Virus record (IMG/VR): IMGVR_UViG_3300042446_002147
Coordinates: 59,770 to 123,769 of that record
DNA length: 64,000 nucleotides
Direction: 5' to 3' (one strand)
DNA from: a virus
This document shows, one piece after another, positions 12,701 to 59,622 of this stretch. Below the pieces are notes generated by a model that made no database searches, was not told the origin of the DNA, and saw only the letters and a program-made list of their open reading frames with translations. Both the position numbers and the translations under genes were made by a program. Position 1 is the first letter of the stretch. The number at the start of each line of letters is the position of its first letter.

Positions 12701-13054
12701 ATGAAAAATTTAATAGAATATAATAGCTTCTTATTAGAATCTAAATCGATTAATGATTCTAGATCCTTTGAGGATAGAGTTAAGTTTCTTAGGGGTGTAT
12801 CTGACAATAATAAAAAAATTGCAATAGATTTACAAAAAGAATATTCCAGAGCAAATAAGGGTGTAATAACAGAATTAAATTTACATCCGGATTTAATTAA
12901 GAAGATTAAGGAAAAAAAATACCCAGATGGATTCAGCATGGGTATTGATAAAAATGGATTCTTTGTACATACTCATAGGGCTAGATCTAAATCACACGAA
13001 ACTCCTTCTGGTATAACAGCAAAAGAAATGAAATTCATAGATTCTACTGGCTAA
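12701..13054 (+). CDS. Small protein with capsid-targeting-like N-terminus
   Basis: A 117-residue protein of unknown function. The start MKNLIEYNSFLLE|S fits the peptide shared by about eleven proteins in this window (M-K-x-[IL]-x-x-[FY]-x-x-F-x-x-E), which resembles the T4 internal-protein targeting sequence cleaved after [IL]-x-E. The rest is basic (for example DLIKKIKEKKYPDG and HTHRARSKSHE), as expected for a DNA-associated internal protein. It follows the endonuclease stop by three bases. Packaging in the capsid is inferred from the N-terminus only. Confidence 0.6.
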   Translation: MKNLIEYNSFLLESKSINDSRSFEDRVKFLRGVSDNNKKIAIDLQKEYSRANKGVITELNLHPDLIKKIKEKKYPDGFSMGIDKNGFFVHTHRARSKSHETPSGITAKEMKFIDSTG

Positions 13055-13144
13055 TTATTTAAAACTAATAGCGGATTTATTTTAATTTACCTATCTATAA
13101 TTATATAAGAAATTGTCATAAAAATATTGCAGATATATTTCTTT

Positions 13145-13154
13145 GAATATATAG
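13145..13154 (+). promoter_or_regulatory. GAATATATAG promoter-like element
   Basis: Same sequence as the element at 9211-9220, located 7 bases before the ATG of the gp25-like gene and inside a 106-base AT-rich intergenic gap. It would start the wedge-gene unit (gp25, gp6 and the 2254-aa protein). The short distance to the ATG implies a very short or absent leader. Confidence 0.4.
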
Positions 13155-13161
13155 AACTAAG

Positions 13162-13533
13162 ATGGCAAGATTCTCAGAAATTTATCCTAGAACACCGGAT
13201 GATCCTAGATACAAAGAAGGATTATTACATACTGACGATGAAGTAGAAATACTAATCGGTATGATTAAGCAGTGTATGTTAACTACACCAGGTGAAGTTC
13301 TTGGAGATCCTTATTTTGGTATAGATCTAGAAGGCTTATTATTCAATTTTAATGTGGATCAAGTCACTTTAGAAAGAGCAATAAGACTACATTTAATAAC
13401 ATACGTTCCTTTAGCATCAAGTAAATTTAATGTGAATTTTACTGTGGGATTCTTTAAAGGAGAAACTAGAGATTCATGTGTTATTGATTTTGCTATAAAA
13501 GGTAACCCTATATTGGGAATTAAAATAATATAA
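13162..13533 (+). CDS. gp25-like baseplate wedge protein
   Basis: 123 residues, the usual length of the T4 gp25 / P2 gpW family. The family core is clear: EVEILIGMIKQCMLTTPGEV (residues 28-47), then GDPYFGIDLEGLLFNFN, where the family has a turn of type R-x-x-x-P-x-[FY]-G-x-x-L. The end (CVIDFAIKGNPILGIKII) is a beta strand typical of the family. gp25 joins the wedge to the tail sheath. The next gene, one base after the stop, is gp6/J-like; gp25-like and J-like proteins are also neighbours in P2-type phages (W-J), which supports the call. Confidence 0.85.
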   Translation: MARFSEIYPRTPDDPRYKEGLLHTDDEVEILIGMIKQCMLTTPGEVLGDPYFGIDLEGLLFNFNVDQVTLERAIRLHLITYVPLASSKFNVNFTVGFFKGETRDSCVIDFAIKGNPILGIKII

Positions 13534-13534
13534 T

Positions 13535-15232
13535 ATGGATTTATTAGATAAGAACAAAGCAAAAATATCAGATCTATTATCACAGACTTTTGATTTAATA
13601 CAGGCAAGATATGGCATGTCTGAGCAACTATTTACTGTTGCTTCTGTTTGGGGACAAATAATATTTGTATTAGATAATCTATCCCAATTTATTTTATTCT
13701 TTATTGAAGATTCAATAACAGAGCTTAATATAAATACAGCAACACGAGAATCATCTATATACGGATTAGCAACATTAGCTGGACACAACCCAACAAGATC
13801 AATAGCAGCAAAGGGTGAGATTATAGTAAAATGGAACGGTAAAGGTCTAGAAAATATTGGGGGTGGAGCTATTCTTATACCCAATAATGCACAGGTAAAA
13901 TGTGTAAACAATGGTAGAACCTATCTTCTTAAATTAGGACAAGAATATGTTAGGATAAATCTTGATAACACAGCAACTTTATCTGCTTCAATAATAGAAG
14001 GAACATTAAATACTAATCAATATACAGGAACAGGAAGAAAATTAGAAAGCTTTAATATATCGGCTAGAGGTACATCAGGAATAGAAAATTTTGAAGTTGC
14101 TGTTAGAGTAAACGGTAACACATGGAAGAAATATGATTCTTTATATGATATACCAAGAAATGCAAGAGGCTATATCGTAAAAAGTTCTTTAATATCAGGT
14201 ATAGATATTTTCTTCGGTACAGTAGATTTTGGGTTTCCCCCACCAGCTGGTTCTATAATAGAAGTTGATTATTTAGAGTGTGCTGGAGCGGGTGGTAATT
14301 TATTAGTAGATGATTCATCTCAAGCTCTTTTTAAATTTGATTCAGACGGAACTGATATATTTGGTAGAAATGTAACACTGAGTGAAGTTCTACAAGTTGC
14401 CTGTACAATAGCTCCACAATTGGGAGCTAGTCAAGAGCCTATAGATTTAACAAGACTTCTTGCACCTAAAACATCTAGAAGTTTTGTTTTAGCAAACCCT
14501 ACAAATTATATAACATTCTTCGAAAAATTTGGACAGTTTTCAATCATAGAAGCATTTACTACTTTTGATGATCAATACTTAGATGACGATAATATTATCT
14601 ATTTAATTCTTGTACCCGATATTCAATTAACACTAAAAACTAATGAAACATATTTTGATATTTCTCTTTCTAGATTCAAATTAACTAATGCTCAAAGAGA
14701 TAGGATTTATCAGTTGTTAGATGAGAGTGGACAAAAAATAGTTACTACTGTGGTAAAAATATTAGATCCCGTACTTATTAAATATGTAGTAAATATTGCT
14801 TTAACTATATTCGAAGGTAATGATCCTTCCACAATAAAAAACCAAATAACTAGTATATTAAGTGATTATTTTCTTAATATAAGAAGAAGAGATAAAATAC
14901 CTAGATCTGATTTAATTGCAGCAATTGAGTCTATTTCAGGAGTGGATTCGGTTTCTCTTTACTTTGTAGGAGAGGCTAATGAATTAGCCAAATCACAAAG
15001 TCCAAATTCTCCAGATATTGGATTCGATGAATTTGGCGATATTGTTATGGGTAAAGACGAAATTGTTGTTATATCTGGCGGATGGGAAGATAGGAATGGT
15101 ATTTATTATGACTACGGAGCTGGTATGGACACTCTATCTTCAGTGAATATAGATATTAGATCTATTGTACCAGTAACTTATAATACTAAAGTAAATAATA
15201 TATTAAAAAGCTCACTAAATACAGGAAACTAA
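13535..15232 (+). CDS. gp6/J-like baseplate wedge protein
   Basis: 565 residues, close to T4 gp6 (660). The N-terminal helical part (residues 1-75) is followed by TRESSIYGLATLAGHNPTRS, the conserved lead into the first beta domain in baseplate J/gp6 proteins, then a beta-rich middle and a C-terminal region (~405-480) with ILDPVLIKYVVNIALTIFEG, the J-family domain. gp6 forms the inner ring that holds wedges together. It sits one base after gp25 and one base before a small gene, in one operon. Confidence 0.75.
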   Translation: MDLLDKNKAKISDLLSQTFDLIQARYGMSEQLFTVASVWGQIIFVLDNLSQFILFFIEDSITELNINTATRESSIYGLATLAGHNPTRSIAAKGEIIVKWNGKGLENIGGGAILIPNNAQVKCVNNGRTYLLKLGQEYVRINLDNTATLSASIIEGTLNTNQYTGTGRKLESFNISARGTSGIENFEVAVRVNGNTWKKYDSLYDIPRNARGYIVKSSLISGIDIFFGTVDFGFPPPAGSIIEVDYLECAGAGGNLLVDDSSQALFKFDSDGTDIFGRNVTLSEVLQVACTIAPQLGASQEPIDLTRLLAPKTSRSFVLANPTNYITFFEKFGQFSIIEAFTTFDDQYLDDDNIIYLILVPDIQLTLKTNETYFDISLSRFKLTNAQRDRIYQLLDESGQKIVTTVVKILDPVLIKYVVNIALTIFEGNDPSTIKNQITSILSDYFLNIRRRDKIPRSDLIAAIESISGVDSVSLYFVGEANELAKSQSPNSPDIGFDEFGDIVMGKDEIVVISGGWEDRNGIYYDYGAGMDTLSSVNIDIRSIVPVTYNTKVNNILKSSLNTGN

Positions 15233-15233
15233 T

Positions 15234-15479
15234 ATGGACAAACAGAGTTGGTACGAATTTATAGAATCACAAAATGATGATAGATCAAATAAAGGATTTG
15301 ATTACGAAGGAAAGATCTTTGAAAAGACACTTTCTAACCAAATAATAAATGGTGATAATAATAGAGTAGATATATTAGCAAGTATAGAGAAAGTTGTTTA
15401 TAAATTATTTGAAACCACTAAATACATAAAGAACTATATTAATTATACAGTTCCTAAAAATAATAAGTACGTAAGATAG
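15234..15479 (+). CDS. Small conserved-position baseplate operon protein
   Basis: 81 residues, unrecognised. The sequence is hydrophilic with a likely helix around VDILASIEKVVYKLFETT. It is fitted tightly between the gp6-like gene (one base) and the next giant gene (one base), so it is almost certainly translated as part of the wedge operon. It may be a small wedge component or assembly chaperone; no function can be read from the sequence. Confidence 0.55.
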   Translation: MDKQSWYEFIESQNDDRSNKGFDYEGKIFEKTLSNQIINGDNNRVDILASIEKVVYKLFETTKYIKNYINYTVPKNNKYVR

Positions 15480-15480
15480 G

Positions 15481-22245: not shown

Positions 22246-22253
22246 TAATTATT

Positions 22254-22526
22254 TCAATAACATTCATCTATTAATTTAGCCAATTTTATATCCTTTTCAG
22301 TTATTATATCTCCTGCATCATGAGTTGATAACTTGAGAGATATTTTGTTATAAATCCAATTAATTTCGGGATGATGTTTTTCCTCTTCACATATTATTGA
22401 AATCTCATTTATAAATTTTAAAGCCTGTTTAAAATCCTGAAAATTAAAATTTCTTTCCAGTTTATTATAAACTTCTGTCCAATCGGAATTTGATTGGAAT
22501 TTTTTATATGTCTTTAGATTTATCAT
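22254..22526 (-). CDS. Pterin-4a-carbinolamine dehydratase (PCD/DCoH family)
   Basis: The family signature is nearly complete: FNFQDFKQALKFINEIS, then EEEKHHPEINWIYNKI, then LKLSTHDAGDIITEKDIKLA. The catalytic histidines are H51, H52 and H69 in the 90-residue version. PCD recycles 4a-hydroxytetrahydrobiopterin after aromatic amino-acid hydroxylation, and some family members act as binding or assembly factors. A start seven codons upstream (22547) is possible but overlaps the previous gene; I chose 22526 because it gives MINLKTYKKF, which fits the shared capsid-targeting-like peptide. It is the last gene of a three-gene minus-strand unit. A phage PCD with such an N-terminus is unusual. Confidence 0.8.
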   Translation of the reverse strand: MINLKTYKKFQSNSDWTEVYNKLERNFNFQDFKQALKFINEISIICEEEKHHPEINWIYNKISLKLSTHDAGDIITEKDIKLAKLIDECY

Positions 22527-22536
22527 ATTATTAAAA

Positions 22537-24057
22537 TTATATAACATACCGTGAAACTAATCCTTTATACCAGTTTATTTCGCCTTGATCTATTTTATAG
22601 TTTTCTCCCTTTATAAGTTGGTTATCTTTAGTAAATTCGGGACTTTCAAAATATGAAATTAACTCTCCTGGTTTAATTGCCTCTATTTTATCAATACAAT
22701 CGCTGTTAATTAATGTTATTTCAACGCTCTGACCGTTCACTGTTTCATTTCCTGAGTGATAACCAGACATTCCGCAAATACTAGCTAATTTGTATTCTCT
22801 TTGGTCTATATCGCTATCGCTTTTATGGAAAAACTTAGTTCCTTTTTTTAGTGTTATTTTATAAACTGTTGGAAATAAATTTTGAGATAAATTCGGGATA
22901 GGCCTATCAGCATCTAATCCGAATCTCAAATAGCAATAATAGAAAGCATATGGTATATTATTAGTTACATACATAACTTTTCCTGAAACCCTTTCCCTAT
23001 ATCCTCCTTCTTTATTGATAAGGTATGATACATTTTCTAAATTAAGATTATTAAAGTTTTGCCCAGAATAAACAATATTTCCACCAATTAATCCATCTTC
23101 ACTTTTTATGGCCACTTTAGTATCTTCAGTTCCTATTTCAACATATTCCATTCCATTCACATAATCCAAATTATTCATTGTCATATCCAATGCCATCTCT
23201 GATATTGTTTTATCTTTCAGATTTTCCTCAGCCCATGTTAATAAGTCCATACCCCATCCCGAAATTTGAAAGTTGGGTTTATCTGGTATTATAGACATAC
23301 CCCGTGACTTATTGAAGAGTTCTTCGTATCTACTTTGGACTTTATCATAGAGTTCAACTGTATTTACAAATTCGCCCGAGTTCCATTCAAAGCTTTTTAA
23401 TTTATGATTTAACTCAATAGTATAAGCCTTGAATCTCTTAAATATGTCTGTTTCTAATATTTTTTTGTTTCCATCAGAAGCATTAAATTTATCTATAAAA
23501 GCATATGTGTCTCTGTTCTTAAAATTAGGACTCCCGTCGATACAGCTAAAGAATTTATTAAACTCTTCTTTTTTTGATTCAAAATCATTTTTTATAAATG
23601 AAGAAATTTTGTTATATTTAGCGACATCTTCATTATATTTTTCTAACTCTTTAGTTAGTTTATTTTTTTGAACTACTTCTTTTATATTATCATATTCTCT
23701 AATTATGTATTGATAGAGTGAGCTAATATACATAATTAGATATTCGGCATCATCTGATGATATTTCTCCTAGTTCTGAATACCAATCACCTGAATCGAGT
23801 ATGGTTTTAAATTTCTCACGTAACCTAATAGCTATGTTCGAGCCTCCTTGATTATTTTTATCTATTTTTTGCTGTAGTCTATCGGAAAATTCTTTCTTTT
23901 CTTCGTCATTTAATCCCTCGTAAATGTCTCTTAATAGCTTTACCTGAGCATTTATTTCTTTTCTATCGGCTCCGGTAAAGCTCCTAGCTATTTTACTAAA
24001 AATGCCTTCATTAACATTACTATCGATAAAATCATTAAAACTTTTTATTCTTTTCAT
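22537..24057 (-). CDS. Large protein with capsid-targeting-like N-terminus, possible ART-like C-terminal domain
   Basis: 506 residues. It begins MKRIKSFNDFIDSNVNE|G, the shared peptide, followed by IFSKIARSFTG. Residues ~40-270 are charged and coiled-coil rich. The C-terminal ~200 residues are mixed alpha/beta. The segment VMYVTNNIPYAFYYCYLRFG followed by TVYKITLKKGTKFF has the shape of an ADP-ribosyltransferase-like fold (strand, helix packing on it, then strand), as in Arr and related toxins. I cannot locate a convincing R-S-E or H-Y-E triad, so this is a weak guess. T4 Alt is an ADP-ribosyltransferase that is packaged in the capsid, which makes the combination worth testing. It is 9 bases downstream of phoH in the same unit. 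Confidence 0.5.
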   Translation of the reverse strand: MKRIKSFNDFIDSNVNEGIFSKIARSFTGADRKEINAQVKLLRDIYEGLNDEEKKEFSDRLQQKIDKNNQGGSNIAIRLREKFKTILDSGDWYSELGEISSDDAEYLIMYISSLYQYIIREYDNIKEVVQKNKLTKELEKYNEDVAKYNKISSFIKNDFESKKEEFNKFFSCIDGSPNFKNRDTYAFIDKFNASDGNKKILETDIFKRFKAYTIELNHKLKSFEWNSGEFVNTVELYDKVQSRYEELFNKSRGMSIIPDKPNFQISGWGMDLLTWAEENLKDKTISEMALDMTMNNLDYVNGMEYVEIGTEDTKVAIKSEDGLIGGNIVYSGQNFNNLNLENVSYLINKEGGYRERVSGKVMYVTNNIPYAFYYCYLRFGLDADRPIPNLSQNLFPTVYKITLKKGTKFFHKSDSDIDQREYKLASICGMSGYHSGNETVNGQSVEITLINSDCIDKIEAIKPGELISYFESPEFTKDNQLIKGENYKIDQGEINWYKGLVSRYVI

Positions 24058-48779: not shown

Positions 48780-49379
48780 ATGAGAAACATCAAAGAATAT
48801 AGAGATTTCTGTATTAATGAATCTGAAGAATTATTCTTTAGCAGACACTTAGGAAATGATGCTAAGACATATGGTGATAGGGCTAAAAATCATTATAACC
48901 TACCTGAAGATGCTAGTATATTACAAAAAACTCAAAGGTTCTTTGGGTACATCGAAGACAAGCTAAACAATATTGCACAAGCAGGACAAGATATAACAAG
49001 ACAAAATAGAGCTGTTAGAGGCGGGGGTTTAAATACTGGATATGAAATGTTATTCGGTCTTCCGGCTATTGTACCAGGAGTACTTAAAAGAGTATTCGGA
49101 CCTACTAAATATGAGATTTCTAAAAGAGTACCAGCTAAGGATGAAGATGTAGATGTTGAGTTCATGAGACACACAAATGAGGATTTTGCTAAAAATGAAC
49201 TACCGAACATTAAAACTGAGCAACAATTAGAAGATAATATCACCGAGCTTTATCAAAAAGCTCAGGTTAATAAAGGACAGGTACCTGCTCTAGATGATAT
49301 AGGAATGAATAGAGCTTACCTTTATTATACAAAACAAAAAAATCCTAATCAACCTATATTCCAACCAAATAACGCATAA
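48780..49379 (+). CDS. Protein with capsid-targeting-like N-terminus (199 aa)
   Basis: It begins MRNIKEYRDFCINE|S, a clear match to the shared peptide. The rest has no recognised domain: a helical stretch (LQKTQRFFGYIEDKLNNIAQ), a Gly-rich linker, a short hydrophobic segment (LFGLPAIVPGVLKRVFG, residues ~91-107) that might associate with membrane or other proteins, and a charged C-terminus. Candidate internal virion protein; function unknown. Confidence 0.55.
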   Translation: MRNIKEYRDFCINESEELFFSRHLGNDAKTYGDRAKNHYNLPEDASILQKTQRFFGYIEDKLNNIAQAGQDITRQNRAVRGGGLNTGYEMLFGLPAIVPGVLKRVFGPTKYEISKRVPAKDEDVDVEFMRHTNEDFAKNELPNIKTEQQLEDNITELYQKAQVNKGQVPALDDIGMNRAYLYYTKQKNPNQPIFQPNNA

Positions 49380-50136: not shown

Positions 50137-50138
50137 AA

Positions 50139-50585: not shown

Positions 50586-50588
50586 AAA

Positions 50589-52622
50589 ATGTCTGGAATA
50601 AAATATTTAGCCGATATCTACGAAAAAAAAGGAAAGGATTTTATAGAAAAACTTTTCAGCCAGGAACTTAGTGTTACTGAGAATCTTGATGGATCATCTT
50701 TTTCTTTCGAAAAAGATTTTACTGGTGACAATATTTCTTTTTATAAAAAAGATCAGGAAAATCCTATAACTAAAGTTGATAGGATATTAATGAGATACTA
50801 CGATAAGCCTATAAATTATATAGATTCCCTTCCGGAGTCAGTAAAAGCTGAGATACCAAAAGGATGGAGATTTGGTATGGCTTATTTTCCTAATACAAAG
50901 CCAGTAAGAATTGAATATGAAAGACTTCCAAAAAATCATTTAATTCTAACACATATTCTTGTAAGGGACGAATTTGGCGAAACCACAAGAACTATACAGG
51001 AGAAAGACGAACTAGATGAATGGGCAGATAAGCTCGGAGTAGAAAAAGCACCTATTATTTTCCAAGGAAAATTAAACGACGATCAGAAAATGTCTATTAT
51101 GGATTTTTTATCAACTCCATTAATGGATTTAAAAACACGTTTCAAGACTGAAAGTTTTTCTAAGTATCTAATATCTTTATTAAATCCAGAAATAATTAAG
51201 ACCACTTTAGGTAAGGATTTACAAGGAGAGATAGACTCCTTGGTTTTTAGATTCGAGGAAGATGGTAAGGAAGATGTTGTTTTAGCTAAAATGGTTGATC
51301 CAGTTTTTTATGAAATAACAAGAGATAGAAAAGTTACAAGGTCTTCTTACTTCCCTAGCGACATTTATTCTCTTTGTCTAATAGATATTATGAATTTCAT
51401 ATTAGAAAGAGGTGTAGAGAGCTTTAGCGCAGAAGGAACTGAGCCTGAGGAGAGGTATATTAATTTTGTATTCTCCGTTTTTAAAACTTTTTCGTACGAA
51501 GAGGGAGAAAGATATATTGGTGCAGACTTTGATAAACCTGAGTATCTTAAATCTGAAAACTTTGACATTAATAAGGAACTAATAGTCGATAAAGATGTTG
51601 TTGAGTATTTAGATAAAGATGAAGTTTATTGTGATATCCTCCAAATGGTATTAAATTCATTTAGAAAATTCAAAAGAAAACCTCATGGGTTTTTCACTGA
51701 GGGTCTAATAGAACAATTCAATCTTCTTGTTGAAGAGATAGCTGATTATATAAATGCTAAAAGAAAAGATAGGATAGAAGAATCTTTAGGAGTTCCCACA
51801 TTTGTTTGGTTTAAAAAAACAGGAAGTAGATTTAAAATCACTGACGATGAATCTTTAGAAGATGAAATAGATTTAGATTCTATTATAGAAAATACAGTAT
51901 TTAATGAGTCTGATCTATTATCCGAATCATTAAATGATATCAATGAAAAAGATGACGAATCTATTGAAGAATTAAAAAAATCCGAAGATGACGCATCTGA
52001 GTTCTTTTCATTTAAAGATTTTAAAAAAGTGGTATCAACTCATAAAGAGAAAAAGAAAACAAAAATATTAAATGAGGAAAACCAAAAAGTTAATTTAATA
52101 ATTGGTAAATTCCAGCCATTTAATAACGGACACCTTAAAATGTGTACAAGACTTAAAAAAGAAAATGACCTCCCCGTTTTTCTTTGTGTAGTTCATCCAG
52201 GAGGAGAAACTTCATCTAAAAAATACCCTTTTTCCGAAGAGGCTATTAAGAAGTCTATAGGATCTTTAACAGCAGAAAATGATAAATTATTTGCTGGTTA
52301 TAAAATAGTTCCTACTGATCTTTTAGAAGATGCTATTAAATCTATTGCAGAGAATGTAAATCCTATATCAGTTTGTATAGGAGAGAAAGACTTCGAGAAT
52401 ATGGTTTTACAAAGAGACTGGGTTAGAAATAAATACGATCTTAATGGAAATGATATTGAAATATTTAAAACTCCATATTGGTCTAATAATGAAGAGATAA
52501 GATCGTATATACAAAATACAGATTTCCAGAAATTCAAAAATAAAGTACCTAAATCTATTGCTGTTCTTTTTAATGAGTTTGTAAAGGAAATTCAAGAATC
52601 TTCTAATGAAGATAATATATAA
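50589..52622 (+). CDS. Fusion: ligase-like nucleotidyltransferase + NMNAT-like cytidylyltransferase-fold domain
   Basis: 677 residues. The N-terminal ~270 residues resemble ATP-dependent RNA/DNA ligases: motif I position ENLDGSSF (31-38), GWRFGMAYF (motif III area), HLILTHILVRDEFGE (IIIa), GEIDSLVFRFEEDG (IV) and VVLAKMV (V). The nucleophilic Lys expected two residues before the Asp is Asn (N32). The C-terminal ~175 residues are an NMNAT/NadR-type domain: NLIIGKFQPFNNGHLKM (502-518), PISVCIGEKD and WSNNEEIRSYI (the I-S-x-T-x-I-R area). The first His of the usual HxGH is Asn (N512). An acidic linker (~440-490) joins them. Such domains activate or transfer nucleotides, for example in NAD synthesis, but both key residues are altered, so activity is doubtful. 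Confidence 0.6.
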   Translation: MSGIKYLADIYEKKGKDFIEKLFSQELSVTENLDGSSFSFEKDFTGDNISFYKKDQENPITKVDRILMRYYDKPINYIDSLPESVKAEIPKGWRFGMAYFPNTKPVRIEYERLPKNHLILTHILVRDEFGETTRTIQEKDELDEWADKLGVEKAPIIFQGKLNDDQKMSIMDFLSTPLMDLKTRFKTESFSKYLISLLNPEIIKTTLGKDLQGEIDSLVFRFEEDGKEDVVLAKMVDPVFYEITRDRKVTRSSYFPSDIYSLCLIDIMNFILERGVESFSAEGTEPEERYINFVFSVFKTFSYEEGERYIGADFDKPEYLKSENFDINKELIVDKDVVEYLDKDEVYCDILQMVLNSFRKFKRKPHGFFTEGLIEQFNLLVEEIADYINAKRKDRIEESLGVPTFVWFKKTGSRFKITDDESLEDEIDLDSIIENTVFNESDLLSESLNDINEKDDESIEELKKSEDDASEFFSFKDFKKVVSTHKEKKKTKILNEENQKVNLIIGKFQPFNNGHLKMCTRLKKENDLPVFLCVVHPGGETSSKKYPFSEEAIKKSIGSLTAENDKLFAGYKIVPTDLLEDAIKSIAENVNPISVCIGEKDFENMVLQRDWVRNKYDLNGNDIEIFKTPYWSNNEEIRSYIQNTDFQKFKNKVPKSIAVLFNEFVKEIQESSNEDNI

Positions 52623-52631
52623 TTAAAAAAA

Positions 52632-53468
52632 ATGAAGAAGATATTAAGCTTTAAAGATTTTTCACTATACGAATATCAAAAATTTGACAACTCACTATAC
52701 AATAAAATTAACGAAGCTACATTTACGGACGAGGTGGAGAAAAGAAAATATGATCCGGTAGCTTTCAAAAAAATGAGGGCTGCAGTTTTCTTTCTAAACG
52801 CACAATATCCTTTCTTTGGAGGTCTTTTGTCTAGATTAATCATTAGAGAAAATAGAGGTATAAAAACAATGTGTACTGATGGAGTAAGTATTCACTACAG
52901 CCCAGGATTTGTACATGAACATACTGATGATGAAATAATGTGGGTAATAGCCCATGAGGTTTTACATTGTGCTTTATTACATTTCCTAAGAATGCCAGGA
53001 AAGGATTCTAAAACAGTAAGTATATGGAATTATGCTACAGATTATGCTTTAAATCAGATGCTTACACCAGTCGATGAATCAAATCCAGGTAATCCTAAGC
53101 CTAGCGAAAAGAGAGGAGACTCTATAGGTAAAATGCCAAAGGGAGCATTATATCCTGGATGTGGAAGAGTTTCTTACGATAAAGAATTTGTTGGATTATC
53201 TGCTGATAGCATTTATGGTATTTTAATTAAAAATGGATTTCAACCAGATCCGGAAGATTCGCAAGCTGTTAATCCTCCACCACCTCCACCACCACCAGCT
53301 CCTCCACAGATACCTGTAGTCGGAGATATTATATTCGACCCAGCTAGTGGTAACTACGGTGTGGTAAATAGCGTAGATGAAGATAATGATTCAGTGGATT
53401 ATGATCCTATACCAAAATCTAAGGTTCCTGAATATATTAGAAAAAAATACGAGCAAGACAATTTATAA
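52632..53468 (+). CDS. Predicted zinc metallopeptidase with capsid-targeting-like N-terminus
   Basis: 278 residues. It begins MKKILSFKDFSLYE|Y, the shared peptide. Residues ~47-145 match the metallopeptidase-like domain of VWA-associated proteins (DUF2201/COG3864 type): MRAAVFFLNAQYPFFGGLLS, then IMWVIAHEVLHCALLHFLR with HExxH at 108-112, then IWNYATDYALNQML, where the Asp is the usual third ligand position. A run of eight prolines with Ala/Pro (around 212-225) separates a small C-terminal domain (VVGDIIFDPASGNYGVVNSV). In bacteria this domain is usually fused to a VWA domain; here the VWA is the next gene, 9 bases downstream, followed by a MoxR ATPase. Confidence 0.75.
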   Translation: MKKILSFKDFSLYEYQKFDNSLYNKINEATFTDEVEKRKYDPVAFKKMRAAVFFLNAQYPFFGGLLSRLIIRENRGIKTMCTDGVSIHYSPGFVHEHTDDEIMWVIAHEVLHCALLHFLRMPGKDSKTVSIWNYATDYALNQMLTPVDESNPGNPKPSEKRGDSIGKMPKGALYPGCGRVSYDKEFVGLSADSIYGILIKNGFQPDPEDSQAVNPPPPPPPPAPPQIPVVGDIIFDPASGNYGVVNSVDEDNDSVDYDPIPKSKVPEYIRKKYEQDNL

Positions 53469-53477
53469 AATCGTAAT

Positions 53478-54461
53478 ATGAAAACAACAATAACCGGAAT
53501 AAGAATCCAAGAAATGGATCCACCTGCAGGAACGGGAGGAACAGGACCAACTCCGCCACCACCACCTATTGGAGATCCTGAAAACGTTGATAAATGGAAA
53601 GAAGATGAGGATGAGAAAAAAAGGGATCAAGATGGAAAACCAGAAGAAGAAGATGATGAGGATACTTTCGAAAGAGGCTTAACTGGAGGTGGAGGAACTT
53701 CTAATGTTGGGGGAGTATTACCAACAGGATCTCTAGGAGATCTTGGTGGAGATTCTGGATTAAATGGTGAAACATTAGGAGAAGAATGGGAGACATCATT
53801 AAAAAGATCAGAAAATGCTGGAAACGTACCTGCTTCTGTTAAAAGAGCATTAGATAAATTAAAAAGACCTGTTATTGATTGGAAATCTGAACTTGAGAAA
53901 TATATTGATGATGCAGTATCAAAAACTAAATATAAATTACCTGCTAGAAGATTTATTGGAGGCGGTGATGCTCAATACGGATATAAAAGATATAAAGAGG
54001 ACTTTGAGAACTTAGTGATTGCTATAGACACATCAGGATCTATAACTAGACCTATGATTGAGCAATTTCTTTCAGAGACAATGAAAATTACAGAGGATTA
54101 CGCTCCACAAAAAACAGTAATACTTTATTGTGATACCCAAGTTTATGCCCCAGATATTTTAGAACCAGGAGATACTCCAGATTTTAATAAGATTGCTGGA
54201 GGTGGGGGAACTAATTTTTGGCCTCCTTTTAAATGGGTGGAAAAAAACATACTTGACGTGGGTGAAACCCCAACGGTATTTATATACTTCACTGATGGAT
54301 TTGCAGAATTTCCTAAATCATCCGAATACGGAATAGATGGTTATGATGATAGATGTATTTGGGTATTCTTATCTTTTAATGGAGAGCCTTTTGGAAACGA
54401 TCAACCTTTTGGTGAAAGAATAGATATCACACTGGCAAATAAAGAAGTGGAAACTATATAA
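53478..54461 (+). CDS. VWA-domain protein (COG3864-type C-terminal half)
   Basis: 327 residues. After a Pro/Gly-rich and acidic linker (1-110), residues ~110-175 are a helical lead (PASVKRALDKLKRPVIDWKS), then the VWA domain: LVIAIDTSGSITRPMIEQF with the MIDAS D184-x-S186-x-S188, VILYCDTQVY, GGGGTNFWPPFKWVEKN (MIDAS Thr) and TVFIYFTDGFAEFP (third MIDAS Asp). The first part has two Pro/Gly-rich stretches like the Pro-rich linker at the end of the previous gene, as if one ancestral metallopeptidase-VWA gene had been split. VWA-MoxR pairs usually remodel or assemble protein or metal complexes. It lacks the shared targeting peptide. Confidence 0.8.
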   Translation: MKTTITGIRIQEMDPPAGTGGTGPTPPPPPIGDPENVDKWKEDEDEKKRDQDGKPEEEDDEDTFERGLTGGGGTSNVGGVLPTGSLGDLGGDSGLNGETLGEEWETSLKRSENAGNVPASVKRALDKLKRPVIDWKSELEKYIDDAVSKTKYKLPARRFIGGGDAQYGYKRYKEDFENLVIAIDTSGSITRPMIEQFLSETMKITEDYAPQKTVILYCDTQVYAPDILEPGDTPDFNKIAGGGGTNFWPPFKWVEKNILDVGETPTVFIYFTDGFAEFPKSSEYGIDGYDDRCIWVFLSFNGEPFGNDQPFGERIDITLANKEVETI

Positions 54462-54466
54462 AAATA

Positions 54467-54476
54467 GATATATAAG
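54467..54476 (+). promoter_or_regulatory. GATATATAAG promoter-like element
   Basis: Lies just after the VWA gene stop and ends 23 bases before the MoxR ATG at 54500. It might give the ATPase its own promoter inside the cluster. It is one of the longer-spaced copies of the recurrent element. Confidence 0.4.
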
Positions 54477-54499
54477 AAATAAAATAAGAAATATTAAGG

Positions 54500-56089
54500 A
54501 TGAAAAAAATCTATAACTTTAAAGAATTCGTAAATGAATCTTACAATGTAGACGAAGGGGTATTATCTAATATCGGTAGCAAGATTTCACAATGGGCTAA
54601 ACAGCTTATGACCGCAGTAAGAAATGGCATTATTAGAATGATCTCATCTGGTCCTAAAAAGGGATTACCTGCTTATGTGTTATTTAATTCAGATGAAGGA
54701 TCTATCTCAGATCAAGTTGAAAAATTCTATCGCGGAACACCTTATTATGATATGAACAATATCAATAATCCTTCCGTAGCAAACGAGGCAGTGATTCCTT
54801 TGGAATGGGATAGAGAGGATGATGTACCTAATTCACTTCCCGAAGAAATAGAATCAGATATTAGAAGAAGTCTTAAAGCTTGTTTATCCATTGCAGATCA
54901 AATGGATGCCACAACTGATATGGACGAAAAAGCAAGATTACAAAGGGAATTAAGAAAAGTTAAACCATATTTTATTTATGGAGCACCTGGTATTGGTAAA
55001 ACACAAATCATAGCTAAAATATGCGATGAGCTTGGGTTAAACCTATTGAATTGCGATGGATTAAGTGCAGAACCAGTAGACTTTGCTGGTGTACCTAAAG
55101 TGGTAGATATTGAAGCTCCATCAGCAGAAAATCCATTAGGTAGGGGGGTTACAAGATCTAACGTAAGTGCGGATATTTTACCATATGATAACGGAAAAGG
55201 TGGAAAAGGGGGTATCTTATTTATTGATGAATTCAACCGTATGCCTGTTGAAGTACAAAAGATATTCTTATTATTAGCTCAGCAAAGAAGACTTGGTGTT
55301 AATTATGACATGCCTAATAGATGGTATATCGTAGCAGCAGGAAATAGAAAAGTTGATGACCCTAAGGGTGGTATTGTTGAAATGGGATCTGCATTACAGG
55401 ATAGATTTGAGATTGTCAATCTTATTACTAATCCAGCATCAATGAGAAAATATGTAGAGACTACTCCTGGATTATCTGATATATTCCTACCAGAACTTCT
55501 TGATTTCTTAGATTTTGATGCTAGTTGGTTCCACATGAATGATCCAACTGCTAAGAAATTAAAATACCCTACTCCTAGAGCTTGGGAAGATGCTTCTAGA
55601 GCAGTTAGAAGGGTTCTTCAAGAGTATGAACAAAAAGGAATATCAGAAGTGCCTCATAGCGTATTAGCAAGAGAATTTCAGAAGAACGTAGGTAGAGATG
55701 CTGCTGTAATGTTCTTAGATTTCTATAAGATAGCTCAGCAGATCCCAGTTAAAGAATTATCGCTTCCTTTTACTGATCCTGATAGAGCTCCTATTCCTAG
55801 TGAATACCAAGGAAAAACTAAAAAATCAGGTACTACTAATAGAACTGATTATGAGCACGCTTTATTCACTGCTGTAATTAGAAAAAGCACGGAATTACCA
55901 AAATTAACAAGCACTGAGTCTTGTAACTTTTCAAAATGGTTAAGAAGAGTTAATGCACCAGAGATGGGAGCAATGGCAATCACATCATTCTTCCAAAAAC
56001 ATCCTCATTTATTAGAAGATTATGCAACTATGGAATGTTTAGGACCATTAGCTGATCAATGGGGAGCAGAAATTGGAGTTCAATTTTAA
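54500..56089 (+). CDS. MoxR-type AAA+ ATPase with capsid-targeting-like N-terminus
   Basis: 529 residues. It begins MKKIYNFKEFVNE|S, an excellent match to the shared peptide, followed by NVDEGVLSNIGSKISQWAKQ. The AAA+ core holds Walker A GAPGIGKT (161-168), the MoxR-type CDGLSAEPVDFAGVPK, Walker B GILFIDEFNRMPVEVQKIF (239 onward), sensor 1 IVAAGN (277-282) and a lid domain with TPRAWEDASRAVRRVLQ. MoxR ATPases act as chaperones and usually pair with VWA proteins; the metallopeptidase and VWA genes are just upstream. The module would act as an ATP-driven assembly or disassembly machine. Its delivery inside the capsid is inferred from the N-terminus. Confidence 0.85.
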   Translation: MKKIYNFKEFVNESYNVDEGVLSNIGSKISQWAKQLMTAVRNGIIRMISSGPKKGLPAYVLFNSDEGSISDQVEKFYRGTPYYDMNNINNPSVANEAVIPLEWDREDDVPNSLPEEIESDIRRSLKACLSIADQMDATTDMDEKARLQRELRKVKPYFIYGAPGIGKTQIIAKICDELGLNLLNCDGLSAEPVDFAGVPKVVDIEAPSAENPLGRGVTRSNVSADILPYDNGKGGKGGILFIDEFNRMPVEVQKIFLLLAQQRRLGVNYDMPNRWYIVAAGNRKVDDPKGGIVEMGSALQDRFEIVNLITNPASMRKYVETTPGLSDIFLPELLDFLDFDASWFHMNDPTAKKLKYPTPRAWEDASRAVRRVLQEYEQKGISEVPHSVLAREFQKNVGRDAAVMFLDFYKIAQQIPVKELSLPFTDPDRAPIPSEYQGKTKKSGTTNRTDYEHALFTAVIRKSTELPKLTSTESCNFSKWLRRVNAPEMGAMAITSFFQKHPHLLEDYATMECLGPLADQWGAEIGVQF

Positions 56090-56092
56090 TAG

Positions 56093-56365
56093 ATGAAAAA
56101 ATTCAGTGAAATAATGGAAGGTCATACATCAAAGTATGACCTTTCTAATAGTAAGAGATTATTAGAAGAAGCCATGGAAAAAATAAACATGGTTAGAGAG
56201 GAGTTTTCTAAATTAGAAGATGCTGATGTGACTGAGTTAGAAGAGGGATGGAATCTAATAGATAGATACTACGGTAATTTAACCAAGGGACAAATATTCA
56301 AAAGAAGAAAGAAAGATCAATACATACCTAATACATCCGCTAAAATTCCGGAGAGAGGTTTTTAA
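56093..56365 (+). CDS. Small helical protein, short capsid-targeting-like N-terminus
   Basis: 90 residues, 3 bases after the MoxR gene. The start MKKFSEIME|G is a shortened version of the shared peptide. Residues 15-60 are a charged helix (NSKRLLEEAMEKINMVREEF). The end is basic (KRRKKDQYIPN). Possibly a partner or adaptor of the MoxR module, or an internal protein. Function unknown. Confidence 0.5.
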   Translation: MKKFSEIMEGHTSKYDLSNSKRLLEEAMEKINMVREEFSKLEDADVTELEEGWNLIDRYYGNLTKGQIFKRRKKDQYIPNTSAKIPERGF

Positions 56366-56381
56366 TTAAGATATATAGAAT

Positions 56382-56915
56382 ATGAAACACATTAAATTAT
56401 TTGAAAATTTCTTAAATGAAGATGGATACGGAAGAGACTTCTTTGTAAAAAAGAAAGACGGTAAACTTTCTCAATATTTTTTTAAGATTGAGGGAGAAGA
56501 GGAGGATCTAGGATTTGTAATAAATCTTGGTAAACTATCTAGAAATATCACCATAGAATCTGCAGAGAATAGTTATGCTGTTCTTTCCGTAGAGCCTATC
56601 AGAGAATCTGTGATGGATGATTTTTTAGTGAAAGATTCGGATTTTAAATCAAGAGAAGATGATCAATTCACATTGACTAAATCTGAATATATGAGATTCT
56701 ATAAGATTGTTGGTGAATGTATAAAAGATTACTTACAATCTAATCCTAAGGTTTCTATTATTTATGATGAGGTACCTTTAAATCTTGATATGGATTTTGA
56801 AGAGTATTCAGATAAAGTTAAATCTCTTATGGATGAATGGAGCTACGGTAAATGGAGCTCACAAGAGGGAGCAACAAAGAAAACATTAATTTATTCTAGA
56901 AGAGACCATGATTAA
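56382..56915 (+). CDS. Protein with strong capsid-targeting-like N-terminus (177 aa)
   Basis: It begins MKHIKLFENFLNE|D, the best copy of the shared peptide. The remainder looks like a compact alpha/beta domain (FFVKKKDGKLSQYFFKIEGE, then ENSYAVLSVEPIRE) without a known catalytic motif. A GATATATAG element ends 3 bases before the ATG. The stop overlaps the next gene by 8 bases. Likely internal virion protein by analogy; function unknown. Confidence 0.55.
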   Translation: MKHIKLFENFLNEDGYGRDFFVKKKDGKLSQYFFKIEGEEEDLGFVINLGKLSRNITIESAENSYAVLSVEPIRESVMDDFLVKDSDFKSREDDQFTLTKSEYMRFYKIVGECIKDYLQSNPKVSIIYDEVPLNLDMDFEEYSDKVKSLMDEWSYGKWSSQEGATKKTLIYSRRDHD

Positions 56916-57225
56916 TAATATTCTTTCATATGATGAATTTATATTAGAATCTAGGATACCTATAGCTTGGGCTAAGCCTTCAGTAACAACTACTAAGGTA
57001 CTTTCATTCATAGGAGAGAAAGAAAAAGTAACCAAGAAAGAACTATTAGAATTCTTAGATAGTATACCAGAAGATGCTTCAGGTAAGAAACCCAGTATGT
57101 CTTGGGTTAGAAATCAGAAGAAATATATCAAGTATAAAATACAAGAAGAAGATGCTAACCACTTTGAATTGACCGCTTTAGGCAAGAGAGTTTTAAAATC
57201 TTTCAGGATTAATGAAACAAAATGA
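56908..57225 (+). CDS. Small winged-helix-like protein with capsid-targeting-like N-terminus
   Basis: 105 residues. It begins MINNILSYDEFILE|S, the shared peptide with one added residue. Residues ~28-100 look like a winged helix: VLSFIGEKEKVTKKELLEFL (helices 1-2), then PSMSWVRNQKKYIKYKIQEE (recognition-helix region) and HFELTALGKRVLKSF (wing and last helix, with the L-T-x-x-G-x-x-[LV] pattern common in such domains). A DNA-binding protein delivered with the genome could act on host or phage transcription at once. Inference from fold pattern; moderate confidence. Confidence 0.5.
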   Translation: MINNILSYDEFILESRIPIAWAKPSVTTTKVLSFIGEKEKVTKKELLEFLDSIPEDASGKKPSMSWVRNQKKYIKYKIQEEDANHFELTALGKRVLKSFRINETK

Positions 57226-57259
57226 AATAATTAGGATACAATTATTAAAATAAACAATT

Positions 57260-57439
57260 ATGGAAAATTACGAAAAAATTAAAGAATTAGTAGAAAGCAT
57301 GCAAAAAGACATGGAAGCTTTCTATGTAAAAGGTAACAAATCAGCAGGAACACGAGTTCGTACTGCTTGCCAAGACCTTAAAAAATTGGCTCAAGATCTA
57401 AGAGTAAATGTACAAGAAACTAAGAACACTAAAGCTTAA
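57260..57439 (+). CDS. Histone H1-like protein (Hc1 family, Bacteroidota type)
   Basis: A 59-residue gene. The protein MENYEKIKELVESMQKDMEA continues with FYVKGNKSAGTRVRTACQDL and KKLAQDLRVNVQETK. It matches the short Hc1-type histone-like proteins widespread in Bacteroidota, with the core KFYxKGNKxAGTRxRKxxQDLKxLAQ-x-[IL]-R. These bind DNA and help compact it. The gene stands before a small gene and a strong terminator. A phage copy could pack phage DNA or change the host nucleoid. It supports a Bacteroidota host. Confidence 0.8.
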   Translation: MENYEKIKELVESMQKDMEAFYVKGNKSAGTRVRTACQDLKKLAQDLRVNVQETKNTKA

Positions 57440-57444
57440 TTAAA

Positions 57445-57675
57445 ATGGGATACTACATTTGTAAAGTTAGCTTTTTTAGTGGGGAAGTTTCTAAAAGTAC
57501 AGGAAAAGCGAAAGCTTCTAGGTCTGAAATTTTAGTCGAAGCAGAAACAGTAACACATGCCGAAACTAGACTTCATGAACATTTAGCTGGAGACAATTCT
57601 ACTGCTCATTTAGACTTTGAAGTTACTTCTGTTGCTCAATCTAAGATTGAGTCAGTGGTACATCTTAAAGGCTAA
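57445..57675 (+). CDS. Small conserved-type protein (76 aa)
   Basis: Begins MGYYICKVSFFSGEVSKSTG and has beta-strand/helix/strand order with VEAETVTHAETRLHEHLAGD. The pattern (a short strand pair, then a 'TxxxAExRL' helix) recalls small Bacteroidota proteins such as DUF4494, but I am not certain. It is 5 bases after the histone-like gene and followed by a terminator, so the two may be co-transcribed and abundant. Confidence 0.5.
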   Translation: MGYYICKVSFFSGEVSKSTGKAKASRSEILVEAETVTHAETRLHEHLAGDNSTAHLDFEVTSVAQSKIESVVHLKG

Positions 57676-57690
57676 AAAACACTTTTAACT

Positions 57691-57723
57691 CCTGATGGAT
57701 ATATAATCTATCAGGGGTTTTTT
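57691..57723 (+). terminator. Rho-independent terminator containing a GGATATATAA element
   Basis: CCTGATGGAT pairs with ATCTATCAGG (one G-T wobble) around a short AT loop, followed by GG and six T. It ends the histone-like/76-aa unit. The recurrent promoter-like GGATATATAA (57697-57706) lies in the upper stem and loop, 41 bases before the next ATG at 57748. Confidence 0.75.
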
Positions 57724-57747
57724 GTATCCTCTGGTTTCAATAATTAT

Positions 57748-57921
57748 ATGAAGAAGAGAAAAACTACATCAGCAGAAACTAGCTCATATCTACCACCAGA
57801 TTCACCAGTGAAGATACCGGTAGGAGATACGGGTTTTAATATGGTTAAGAAAAACTACAATAGGTTTATATGGACTTGGAATGAATATATAGACAAGAAA
57901 CCTAAAATTACAAAAAGTTAA
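57748..57921 (+). CDS. Very small basic protein (57 aa)
   Basis: A short gene. The product starts MKKRKTTSAETSSYLPPDSP and ends with NRFIWTWNEYIDKKPKITKS. It is basic and has no known domain. The coding potential is supported by a fitting gap (2 bases) to the next ATG and by being first after the terminator. Function unknown. Confidence 0.5.
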   Translation: MKKRKTTSAETSSYLPPDSPVKIPVGDTGFNMVKKNYNRFIWTWNEYIDKKPKITKS

Positions 57922-57923
57922 TT

Positions 57924-58262
57924 ATGCCAGCAGTTTCTAAGACACAGCAAAGATTAATGGGACAGGCTTACGGAGTCAGAAAATTTATGGATACTAACGG
58001 TAAAGATGGTATTGATCCCGATAGTATAAAATCTGCTTATAGACAAACTATTGTTGAGCTAGCAAGTAATATGAAGAAGAAATCTTTAAAGGATTTTGCT
58101 TCAACCAAACATAATAAATTACCAGAGGAAGTTGAAGAGGGAGAAATTCCTGCAATATATAATTATCTTAAACCTGAATCTAATAAACCAGGCAAAAAAT
58201 CTAAATCTTCCAAGATGTCAAATCTTGCAGATTATAGAGAATTTATATCTAATAAAAAATAA
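57924..58262 (+). CDS. DUF3008-like small protein with C-terminal DYxxF motif
   Basis: 112 residues. It begins MPAVSKTQQRLMGQAYGVRK, matching the small DUF3008-type proteins (P-A-x-S-K-x-Q-x-R-x-M-G) found in many phages and bacteria; their function is unknown. The last ~13 residues, NLADYREFISNKK, resemble the N-terminal peptide shared by other proteins here (compare MRNIKEYRDFCINE) and the end of the next protein (VMDYKSFLTNSKK). Candidate virion or scaffold-associated protein. Confidence 0.6.
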   Translation: MPAVSKTQQRLMGQAYGVRKFMDTNGKDGIDPDSIKSAYRQTIVELASNMKKKSLKDFASTKHNKLPEEVEEGEIPAIYNYLKPESNKPGKKSKSSKMSNLADYREFISNKK

Positions 58263-58265
58263 AAT

Positions 58266-58739
58266 ATGGAAGAAGTAAACGAAGATTGTGGATGTGGTGG
58301 TACAACTGACAACATCAGAAGTTTTAATACTAATAGTACACCTAGATACTCTCAAGATCCTTTAGTTGGTAGAAGAGTTAGTCTAAGAGACGGTAGAAGT
58401 GGATTAGTTGATGATTCGATTAGAAACAATACAGGAGAAGTAATAGGATATGTAATTGAAGGCGATAGAGGTAACTACAGAGTCTTTAAAGATAAAATAG
58501 TTGGTCCAATGGAAGAAAGTGGAGGTGCAATGGCATCTTTATCTAGTACACCAGGAATGGGAGATGTGATTCCCCCTGGACCAGGAAGAACAGGATCTGG
58601 TGATCAATTCCCTTCATTAACTGTGGGAACACCTGCAGCTGGAAAGAAAAAGAAAAAGAAAGATTCTAATAAGAATCCTCTTGATTCATCTGTGATGGAT
58701 TATAAAAGCTTTCTTACTAATTCAAAAAAGAATCAATAA
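58266..58739 (+). CDS. Unknown protein (157 aa) with C-terminal DYxxF motif
   Basis: N-terminal Cys cluster (NEDCGCGGT), then a small beta domain (LVGRRVSLRDGRSGLVDDSI, then EVIGYVIEGDRGNYRVFKDK) with a KOW/SH3-like strand pattern, then a Gly/Pro/Ser-rich linker and a Lys run (KKKKKKDSNKN). The end VMDYKSFLTNSKKNQ resembles the end of the preceding protein. The gene begins 3 bases after the previous stop and ends 1 base before the next ATG. Function unknown. Confidence 0.5.
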   Translation: MEEVNEDCGCGGTTDNIRSFNTNSTPRYSQDPLVGRRVSLRDGRSGLVDDSIRNNTGEVIGYVIEGDRGNYRVFKDKIVGPMEESGGAMASLSSTPGMGDVIPPGPGRTGSGDQFPSLTVGTPAAGKKKKKKDSNKNPLDSSVMDYKSFLTNSKKNQ

Positions 58740-58740
58740 G

Positions 58741-59322
58741 ATGAATCATATACGATCATTTAGAAGTCTTTTTGAAGGAGTAAGTGCAGTAACAACTAAT
58801 TGGTATATTGTAGATAACGAAGCTTCTTTTGATAAGATAAAAGGTAATGGATATATGCTTTTTAGCCAGGTAGGCATAATGACTATCGTTTATGTTAAAC
58901 CTAAAGTAGAGGAAGAAGCTAGATTGGATTTTTATTTTGATAAAGCAAAATCACCAGATAAGAAAAGCATTTGTGTTTGTAAGATAATAGCTAATGACGG
59001 TAAAGTTAGGAGCTCTAAAAATTTTGATGATGTAACTACAGATAATGTTTGGGACATAACAGCTACGTTTTTTGATTATTGTGATTTAGAGAAGTCTGAA
59101 AAATCAATTAGAGATAAATTCATGATGGGATATTCTAAGACAATAAAGGATATCTTTAAAGGTGATACAGAAAGAATACCCGGATCATTTAAAACATATT
59201 TGAATTATATGAAAGAATGGGCAAAGAAATCTATAGAGGGTGTTTCTTTAGATAAGAATGAAGATAATTACGATTTCCGAGAGATGATTAAAGAATTTAT
59301 TGCTTTCTTTAAAAAATCATAA
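58741..59322 (+). CDS. Protein with capsid-targeting-like N-terminus (193 aa)
   Basis: It begins MNHIRSFRSLFE|G, a short match to the shared peptide. The rest is a mixed alpha/beta protein (WYIVDNEASFDKIKGNGYML, then ARLDFYFDKAKSPDKKSICV) and a helical C-terminal half. No family recognised. It converges with the minus-strand gene at 59317-59622, overlapping it by 6 bases. Candidate internal virion protein. Confidence 0.55.
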   Translation: MNHIRSFRSLFEGVSAVTTNWYIVDNEASFDKIKGNGYMLFSQVGIMTIVYVKPKVEEEARLDFYFDKAKSPDKKSICVCKIIANDGKVRSSKNFDDVTTDNVWDITATFFDYCDLEKSEKSIRDKFMMGYSKTIKDIFKGDTERIPGSFKTYLNYMKEWAKKSIEGVSLDKNEDNYDFREMIKEFIAFFKKS

Positions 59323-59622
59323 TTTTTCTTTCTGTCTCAATTGGATAAGATAATTTTCCCAGATTGATCCTCCTTCTTTTATACCAGGTTTAGCGCTCTT
59401 GTGTAACTTAGCTCTTTGTGACATTATATACGATGCTATAATAGCATCTTTTAATTCTATTTCTTTTTTATCCAACATTTCTTGTAATCTTCTTATTGAT
59501 TTTAGAGCTTCGTCCCTATTTGCAAATCTTAATCCTTTAGGATAGCTTTGTCCTGAGTCGAAAGGTTTAATATCATTTAGATAAATCTGTTCGAATAATT
59601 TGAAGGTTAGAATTTTTTTCAC
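59317..59622 (-). CDS. Small protein with capsid-targeting-like N-terminus, GTG start
   Basis: 101 residues read from a GTG at 59622. The N-terminus MKKILTFKLFEQIYLND fits the first ten positions of the shared peptide but has no clear cleavage Glu; the nearest acidic residue is Asp-17. The body is helical (ANRDEALKSIRRLQEMLDKK, then LKDAIIASYIMSQRAKLHKS). A GAATATATAA element on the minus strand (59626-59635) lies 3 bases upstream. A gene standing alone on the minus strand, with a 3' end that overlaps its neighbour. Function unknown. Confidence 0.5.
   Translation of the reverse strand: MKKILTFKLFEQIYLNDIKPFDSGQSYPKGLRFANRDEALKSIRRLQEMLDKKEIELKDAIIASYIMSQRAKLHKSAKPGIKEGGSIWENYLIQLRQKEKL

Follow-up and report, generated by a model that had tools for sequence, protein, structure and literature searches.

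Why should some eleven proteins with unrelated bodies, all encoded in one stretch of viral DNA, begin with much the same short peptide? The stretch, called the window here, comprises 64,000 nucleotides of the IMG/VR virus record IMGVR_UViG_3300042446_002147 (positions 59,770 to 123,769; G000:C1:59770-123769). It is about half of a linear record of 123,769 bases; as contigs carrying related genes extend to 148, 349 and 597 kb, this record is probably only a fragment. We propose, with a probability of roughly 0.83, that the peptide is a capsid-targeting sequence (CTS) of the T4 type spread over many genes, which would dock its bearers by imitating a repeat of the prohead scaffold and be cut by an S77 protease, the cargo probably being delivered.

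The shared N-terminus and its putative cleavage signature

All eleven N-termini singled out by a first-pass annotation of the window were confirmed at their coordinates. That annotation summarized them as M-[KRN]-x-[IL]-x-x-[FY]-x-x-F-x-x-E; the shared peptide stood, but the literal formula fits only three of the eleven (genes at window 12701, 54500 and 56382), and the same three are its only matches among 119 open reading frames (ORFs) of the record. Looser cores were therefore used and tested against internal positions. The common core, [ILV]xx[FY]xx[FW], usually has [ILV]xE|[SAG] after it, and the looser [ILV]xx[FY]xx[FWYL] matches ten of the eleven, the exception being the short, weak form at 56093. 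A Glu is present in the tag of ten genes (22526 lacks it) and is followed by Ser or Gly in seven of these ten, in keeping with the earlier description. The bodies are indeed unrelated, with no pair among the eleven matching from residue 21 onward at an E-value of 0.1 or better. As in a CTS, then, a short N-terminal peptide is common to otherwise unrelated proteins. Putative cleavage sites lie about 9-25 residues from the protein start, and the record holds about 18 N-terminal copies of the main tag type (the window's eleven and those of a head-gene cluster). In the window, the genes recognised as serving DNA replication or the baseplate (gp32-like, helicase, DNA polymerase, ribonucleotide reductase, PhoH and baseplate wedge) do not begin with it.

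To count the tag beyond the window, the rest of the record was fetched and its ORFs listed, with counts made over 119 or 117 ORFs depending on the test and expected values taken from how often each pattern occurs at internal positions of these proteins. The comparison covered seven family genomes (this record, G000, with G003, G008, G011, G013, LR756500 and G015, a 349-kb relative) and three controls (PTm1, T4 and P-SSM2). The pattern [ILV]..[FY]..F.{1,3}E stands at the start of 10 of the 119 ORFs in the present record against 0.26 expected, and the core without Glu begins 15 of 117 against 1.9 (P 2e-9), each list including two spurious-looking matches, a 49-aa ORF and an exonuclease-like protein at record 10597 that is begun by its own conserved motif. 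Observed and expected core counts are 19 and 3.2 in G003, 66 and 7.4 in G015, 18 and 4.4 in G008, 10 and 2.9 in G013, 10 and 2.2 in G011, and 52 and 11 in LR756500. The peptide is thus far above chance in the record, and the core is enriched in all seven family genomes (P 8e-4 to 3e-39) and not in PTm1 or in T4 (5 observed, 4.2 expected in T4). A motif-free test, which counts pairs of proteins with unrelated bodies that have at least six residues in common among positions 2-14 and compares them with five internal offsets, gave 10 pairs against 0-2 in G000, 44 against 3-9 in G015, 368 against 10-30 in LR756500 and 6 against 0-3 in G008. Among the controls it showed no clear excess in PTm1 (3 against 1-3) or T4 (4 against 0-4) and a modest one in P-SSM2 (8 against 1-4). 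At about 312960-317720 of LR756500 (L160:8960-13720) several adjoining genes begin with a near-identical MK[YF]ILEYEEFL, and their bodies are mostly not clustered by BLAST.

The residues that follow the core carry a signature of their own. Across 190 N-terminal core matches in the seven genomes, obtained with a motif chosen without Glu, a Glu stands three residues after the last aromatic in 62 (33%), compared with 6% at internal matches (P 2e-28). The residue after a Glu at +3 or +4 is Ser, Ala or Gly in 41 of 84, compared with 16.6% for all Glu (P 8e-12). When the first Glu within nine residues is taken as P1 (154 N-terminal and 363 comparison cases), P3 is Ile, Leu or Val in 101/154 against 90/363, P1' is Ser, Ala or Gly in 70/154 against 82/363, and both occur jointly in 59/154 against 26/363 (P 8e-17). 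The T4 prohead protease gp21 cleaves after [LI]xE, and the signature agrees with such cleavage. In the tag of T4 IPIII, residues 4 and 7 are described as the main determinants of targeting, and residues 8 and 10 as those of processing (PMC9026906). Counted from the Glu these are -6, -3, -2 and 0, the very positions of the commonest form here. The register of aromatics at -6 and -3, an aliphatic P3 and Glu at P1 is present as a statistical signature; spacing varies, and a minority, such as 22526 and a protein at record 27373, lack the Glu.

Head machinery, scaffold resemblance and competing explanations

A gp21-like prohead protease, which the first-pass annotation had proposed looking for, is found in the same record, outside the window: a Peptidase_S77 domain of the T4 type at record 14712-15062 (E 6.6e-12, above the curated cut-off), in a 678-aa ORF that matches the PHROG head maturation protease (1.4e-38) and adjoins an ORF matching the PHROG major head protein (2.9e-34). 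Seven of eight further records also encode an S77 protease, one of the seven below the cut-off; the eighth, MaF61, has none. Fused behind the protease domain is a scaffold of about a dozen 14-residue repeats, for example NISYSEYLAENLDK. A position-specific scoring matrix for residues -6 to +1 was built from the tags of other genomes and used to score every internal window in each genome. Repeats of the scaffold made up 9 of the top 30 windows in G000 (0.5 expected), 15 in G003, 13 in G011 and 8 in G015 (0.2-0.5 expected throughout), as well as 3 in PTm1 (0.29 expected); repeats within one protein share descent from one unit and do not count as independent events. Tag and repeat have in common the positions that are described as governing targeting and cleavage in the T4 CTS. 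T4 internal proteins are also described as co-purifying with gp22, and their propeptides as having affinity for the core (PMC9026906).

Given these matches and the T4 precedent, we propose that docking occurs by imitation of the scaffold repeat. The aromatic pair (in its commonest form at -6 and -3 relative to the Glu), together with the aliphatic residue before it, would dock a newly made protein on the prohead scaffold by imitating the scaffold's own repeat (...YSEYLAEN...); once the shell has formed, the S77 protease would cut after [ILV]xE in the scaffold, the capsid protein and the tags, freeing the cargo inside the head, after which DNA would be packed and the cargo probably delivered with it. 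Docking, cleavage, presence in the virion and injection are all steps that we infer from sequence.

The cultured Sphingomonas phage PAU, whose host is said to belong in Sphingobacterium (PMC3738902), offers a comparison with annotated head proteins. A distinct but similar start, MKT[IL]..LYEAKLNEAS, occurs on about 20 of its genes. A regular expression for it matches 23 of 299 ORFs against 2.1 expected, and four of the five genes annotated as internal capsid protein carry it (gp142, gp154, gp199 and gp270; Fisher 1.3e-4); both figures are partly post hoc, because the expression was written after six PAU peptides had been seen, two of them from labelled genes. The motif-free test, which is independent of that expression, gave 109 pairs against 0-5 at internal offsets. 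The product of gp152, annotated as scaffolding, is tagged as well. The mature PAU capsid protein is listed as 520 of 585 residues from N-terminal sequencing (PMC5646251, Table 1), and a cut after LME-64 would leave 521. The origin of the internal capsid protein labels was looked for and not found, and neither the capsid protein nor gp270 had a sequence match in the PDB at the limits used.

Several observations weigh against the capsid-targeting proposal. Several tagged proteins lack the Glu. The core is not enriched in PTm1 (5 observed, 5.8 expected), a relative with a protease-scaffold, and the bare core is over-represented in the control P-SSM2 (14 and 4.3), three of whose matches have a Glu at +3 and several of which begin YDNF-type. 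Three family genomes, G003 (4 pairs against 1-3), G013 (3 against 1-2) and G011 (1 against 0-1), give no clear excess in the motif-free test. Scaffold resemblance is weak in LR756500 (1 of the top 30, 0.16 expected), and no T4 scaffold window is in the top 30, the best gp22 window, DHLAKEWLAEN, ranking 33 of 42,557. In PAU, gp70 (internal capsid protein) is untagged, as are gp1 and gp10 (internal capsid vertex protein), so that counting all gives 4/7 (Fisher 8e-4). Two of six relatives of the tagged ATPase described below, those in G013 and G014, start with MAKTT instead of a tag. Finally, we found no virion proteomics for this lineage.

Among the alternatives, one of low but not negligible probability is that the tag marks structural core or scaffold parts only, which are degraded or kept inside after prohead building, with few or none injected. 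It draws on the many tagged genes of the head cluster, those of the protease-scaffold and of an acidic protein among them. Against it stand tagged enzyme domains of no evident structural role: adenylate kinase, pterin dehydratase, a RimK-like ligase, an AAA+ ATPase, a putative metallopeptidase, CHAP and SLT. The idea of the first-pass annotation that this phage packages and injects a large set of internal proteins, enzymes among them, is supported in part: its capsid-targeting reading came through the main sequence tests (the S77 protease, tag-like N-termini in the head cluster, the enrichment of E|S/A/G and the four of five PAU genes), and a portion of the tagged proteins evidently belongs to the core or scaffold and not to the enzymes that would be injected.

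It is improbable that the peptide directs proteins elsewhere in the infected cell, for instance to a phage nucleus, the membrane or a replication factory. Sorting to other sites is conceivable for an amphipathic peptide at the N-terminus, and C-terminal and internal copies without Glu exist; the enrichment of [ILV]xE|[SAG], the T4-type S77 protease in the record, the likeness to the scaffold repeat and the PAU annotations all speak for the head. That AT-rich starts and mechanical ORF calling yield MK-x-I-x-x-F by chance can practically be dismissed: some matches do look spurious (the exonuclease-like protein, short ORFs) and P-SSM2 shows its excess of cores, several of them YDNF-type, yet PTm1 and T4 show no excess when run through that pipeline, the enrichment of Glu and of Ser, Ala or Gly lies outside the motif searched, tags recur in diverged orthologues, and the core statistics, the P3/P1' test and the motif-free test all disfavour it.

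Tagged genes and their candidate cargo

The first tagged gene of the window (12701..13054, + strand) encodes a small protein beginning MKNLIEYNSFLLE then S; its six distant relatives all begin tag-like (for example MKRIKLFEEF or MKYIKLFEAY), and five of them align only from residue 13 or later. A pterin-4a-carbinolamine dehydratase (22254..22526, - strand; Pfam 3.5e-25) has the docking core MINLKTYKKF without Glu, and its G015 homologue begins MRHLQQYRGFEIQE then T; a scan with this protein gave two loci only, one being G015 itself. The adjacent 506-aa protein (22537..24057, -) starts with MKRIKSFNDFIDSNVNE then G. G015 has a match for 58 of 117 proteins of the record at a median identity of 43%, with 67% for the capsid protein, and its copy of the 506-aa protein is 93% identical; this gene therefore probably moved between these phages together with its tag. 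Single-sequence scans with the 506-aa protein and the tagged ATPase found only records that are 93-100% identical. The tag of the protein at 48780..49379 (+), MRNIKEYRDFCINE then S, is retained in its orthologues in G003 (MMYKIKNFKDFCQINES) and G008 (MKYIRSYALYES).

Further tagged genes follow closely on the + strand. A putative metallopeptidase (DUF2201_N; 52632..53468) begins MKKILSFKDFSLYE then Y, no tag was recognised on its VWA-like DUF2201 partner (53478..54461), and a MoxR-like AAA+ ATPase (54500..56089) begins MKKIYNFKEFVNE then S. In the stretch 52632-56089 the metallopeptidase and VWA halves are thus two genes, the first alone recognisably tagged, adjoining the tagged ATPase; the LR756500 homologue with a VWA domain is one tagged protein. 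Four of the six ATPase relatives (G003, two in G008, G009) are tagged. The small protein at 56093..56365 has the short form MKKFSEIME then G (MKKYSQIKE then G in G003). At 56382..56915 the start is MKHIKLFENFLNE then D; the six-member family has the core in five and a variant in one (G008), and the linker before the Glu is variable. In both AlphaFold2 (AF2) models made, one of them of the 56382 protein, the tag (residues 1-19 and 1-21) has a predicted local distance difference test (pLDDT) score below 50 and most of the body one above 70. No function could be assigned to the 56382 protein by fold (its best PDB match, at Z 7.4, lies within background, and many rows are GNAT-like), and the Alt ADP-ribosylase of phiAS5 among its viral matches at a TM of about 0.5 is too weak to name one; a G003 protein (106417) considered as an ADP-ribosyltransferase from its LYRG was dropped, having no Pfam match. 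Next come a small protein (56908..57225; MINNILSYDEFILE then S) whose tag is retained in G003 and G008, and a protein at 58741..59322 (MNHIRSFRSLFE then G; MNHLFTFQQLFE in G003). On the - strand, the GTG-started gene at 59317..59622 begins MKKILTFKLFE then Q (MKKILSFKLFE in G003). Among these genes, at 57260-57439 (+), lies a phage-encoded histone H1-like protein Hc1 (PF07432, E 3.5e-24), 68% identical to a G015 copy.

Other Pfam bodies occur behind the main tag in relatives: adenylate kinase, RimK-like ATP-grasp, CHAP, GDPD and SLT domains in G015 (CHAP also in G008; CHAP and SLT are lysozyme-like), and leucine-rich repeats and a polynucleotide 3'-phosphatase in LR756500. In the G015 adenylate kinase the first position of the Pfam domain falls at residue 27, so that the tag is an added extension.

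In the head cluster, a nucleotidyltransferase at record 11339 (Pfam just under the cut-off) begins MKNVLNYNAWLFES. Its family gave 24 distinct sequences, of which 21 were aligned; in all 21 the second aromatic is kept, with a Glu 3-4 positions further along, and in four the first aromatic is replaced by Ile or Leu. The top PDB rows of a fold search with this protein cover only C-terminal helices, nucleotidyltransferases (1ylq, 2rff, CD-NTases) matching at Z 6.1-6.6 within residues 17-151. Tagged or tag-like N-termini also occur at record 19452 (MKSIKKLNEFGSLNEG), 20326 (MALIKLKNFVTEQE), 27626 (MTIRKYSQFLAES) and 28816 (MKRIFTFNQFNLDES). A second N-terminal type has NP[IV]FES at record 12090 and 20634 and LLES at 21194, and the capsid protein and the protease have tag-like N-termini with IYETWSPIIES and LDYVLILEK. 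Among head-cluster orthologues (up to 42 loci; distinct N-termini compared) the endings are mostly kept and the linkers change.

Some copies of the tag may dock without being cleaved, whether at N-terminal, C-terminal or internal sites. At the N-terminus, the protein at record 27373 (..VLSYKDFMKV) lacks the Glu, as do its counterparts in G003, G008, G013 and G011. The C-terminal and internal copies carry no cleavage Glu. The acidic protein at record 26704 has the core at both ends (MDKKILSFEEF ... VIRFDNFFN), as do its counterparts in G003 and G013 and, in part, G008. In the window, the protein at 57924..58262 (+) has the docking core NLADYREF without Glu at its C-terminal end (NLADYREFISNKK; kept in G003 and G011), and that at 58266..58739 (+) has VMDYKSF (VMDYKSFLTNSKKNQ; kept in G003 and G008, weaker in G013). 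Internal copies are FFSFKDF, also seen in G003, in a 677-aa protein with a C-terminal cytidylyltransferase-like domain (50589..52622, +; PF01467 below the cut-off), and ILSFEDFYSVIEE in the 843-aa protein at record 12090, which by the patterns used is present as such or as a variant in 16 of 22 listed family members and not in six.

Injected phage proteins are usually identified virion by virion, by mass spectrometry. If this reading of the tag holds, the proteins that uncultured huge phages are likely to package could be listed from sequence, so that what a virus may bring into its host is probably readable from its genome; candidates for takeover and anti-defence enzymes could be picked out in this way. 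A testable account of CTS docking is offered by the proposed imitation of the scaffold repeat, the natural sequences here separate docking from cleavage, and such tags might load other enzymes into large capsids. More tentatively, at somewhat less than even odds, there may be a general genome-readable code in which a motif mimicking the scaffold repeat takes tens of unrelated proteins into the heads of huge Bacteroidota phages (in the 349-kb relative, about one-tenth of the genes), an N-terminal copy being released by cleavage, a C-terminal or internal one docking permanently, tagged cargo genes being swapped between the phages, and a ready-made enzyme kit being delivered with the DNA. The hosts of named phages with similar capsid proteins are mostly Bacteroidota (Prevotella, Tenacibaculum, Flavobacterium, Chryseobacterium).

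Elsewhere in the record, about 28 ORFs in a run at about 30200-53300 include many that by eye resemble sugar or glycan synthesis genes (epimerase, dehydratase, glycosyltransferase-like), no family search having been made. A long collagen-like GPTGET repeat (window 62600-64000) extends to the right end of the record and the leftmost ORF (record 3-686) is also highly repetitive, so that the contig ends may lie in such repeats.

Comparison with known systems

A literature search outside whose reach lay most subscription journals and preprints returned no report of such a tag in these phages. The giant phages phiKZ and SPN3US are likewise rich in internal proteins, of which some are cleaved by a prohead protease after x-x-E (PMC10052503, PMC5694885). 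The tag here is short, unlike six of the eight N-terminal propeptides described for SPN3US, which span 111-254 residues (the other two 20 and 24), and propeptides mostly above 100 residues, as in the phiKZ type, are not what is seen here; the portions of these accounts that we consulted mention no common short motif for the propeptides. The phiKZ protease is the type peptidase of MEROPS family S80, whereas that of the present record belongs to S77. PTm1 has a fused protein annotated as prohead core scaffolding protein and protease and a capsid protein 31% identical, but no tag enrichment was found in it. PAU resembles the present family in the shared start on about 20 genes, some annotated as internal capsid protein or scaffolding; it differs in the detail of the tag (LYE, often then LNE) and in having protease and scaffolding annotated as separate genes.

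The nearest parallel is the CTS of T4, carried by IPI, IPII and IPIII and cut by gp21, itself an S77 protease. Both systems have a short N-terminal propeptide on unrelated proteins (in our T4 control, an identical MKTYQEFIAEA on two), the register of aromatic, aromatic, aliphatic and Glu, an S77 protease and a scaffold core. T4 has a handful of tagged proteins, whereas the present 124-kb record has about 18 N-terminal copies and the 349-kb relative shows 66 core matches (7.4 expected); here many enzymes are among the candidate cargo, C-terminal and internal copies lack the cleavage Glu, and protease and scaffold are fused, with about a dozen tag-like repeats. The differences from T4 thus lie in the scale, the enzyme cargo, the versions free of a cleavage site at N-terminal, C-terminal and internal positions, and the fused scaffold of tag-like repeats.

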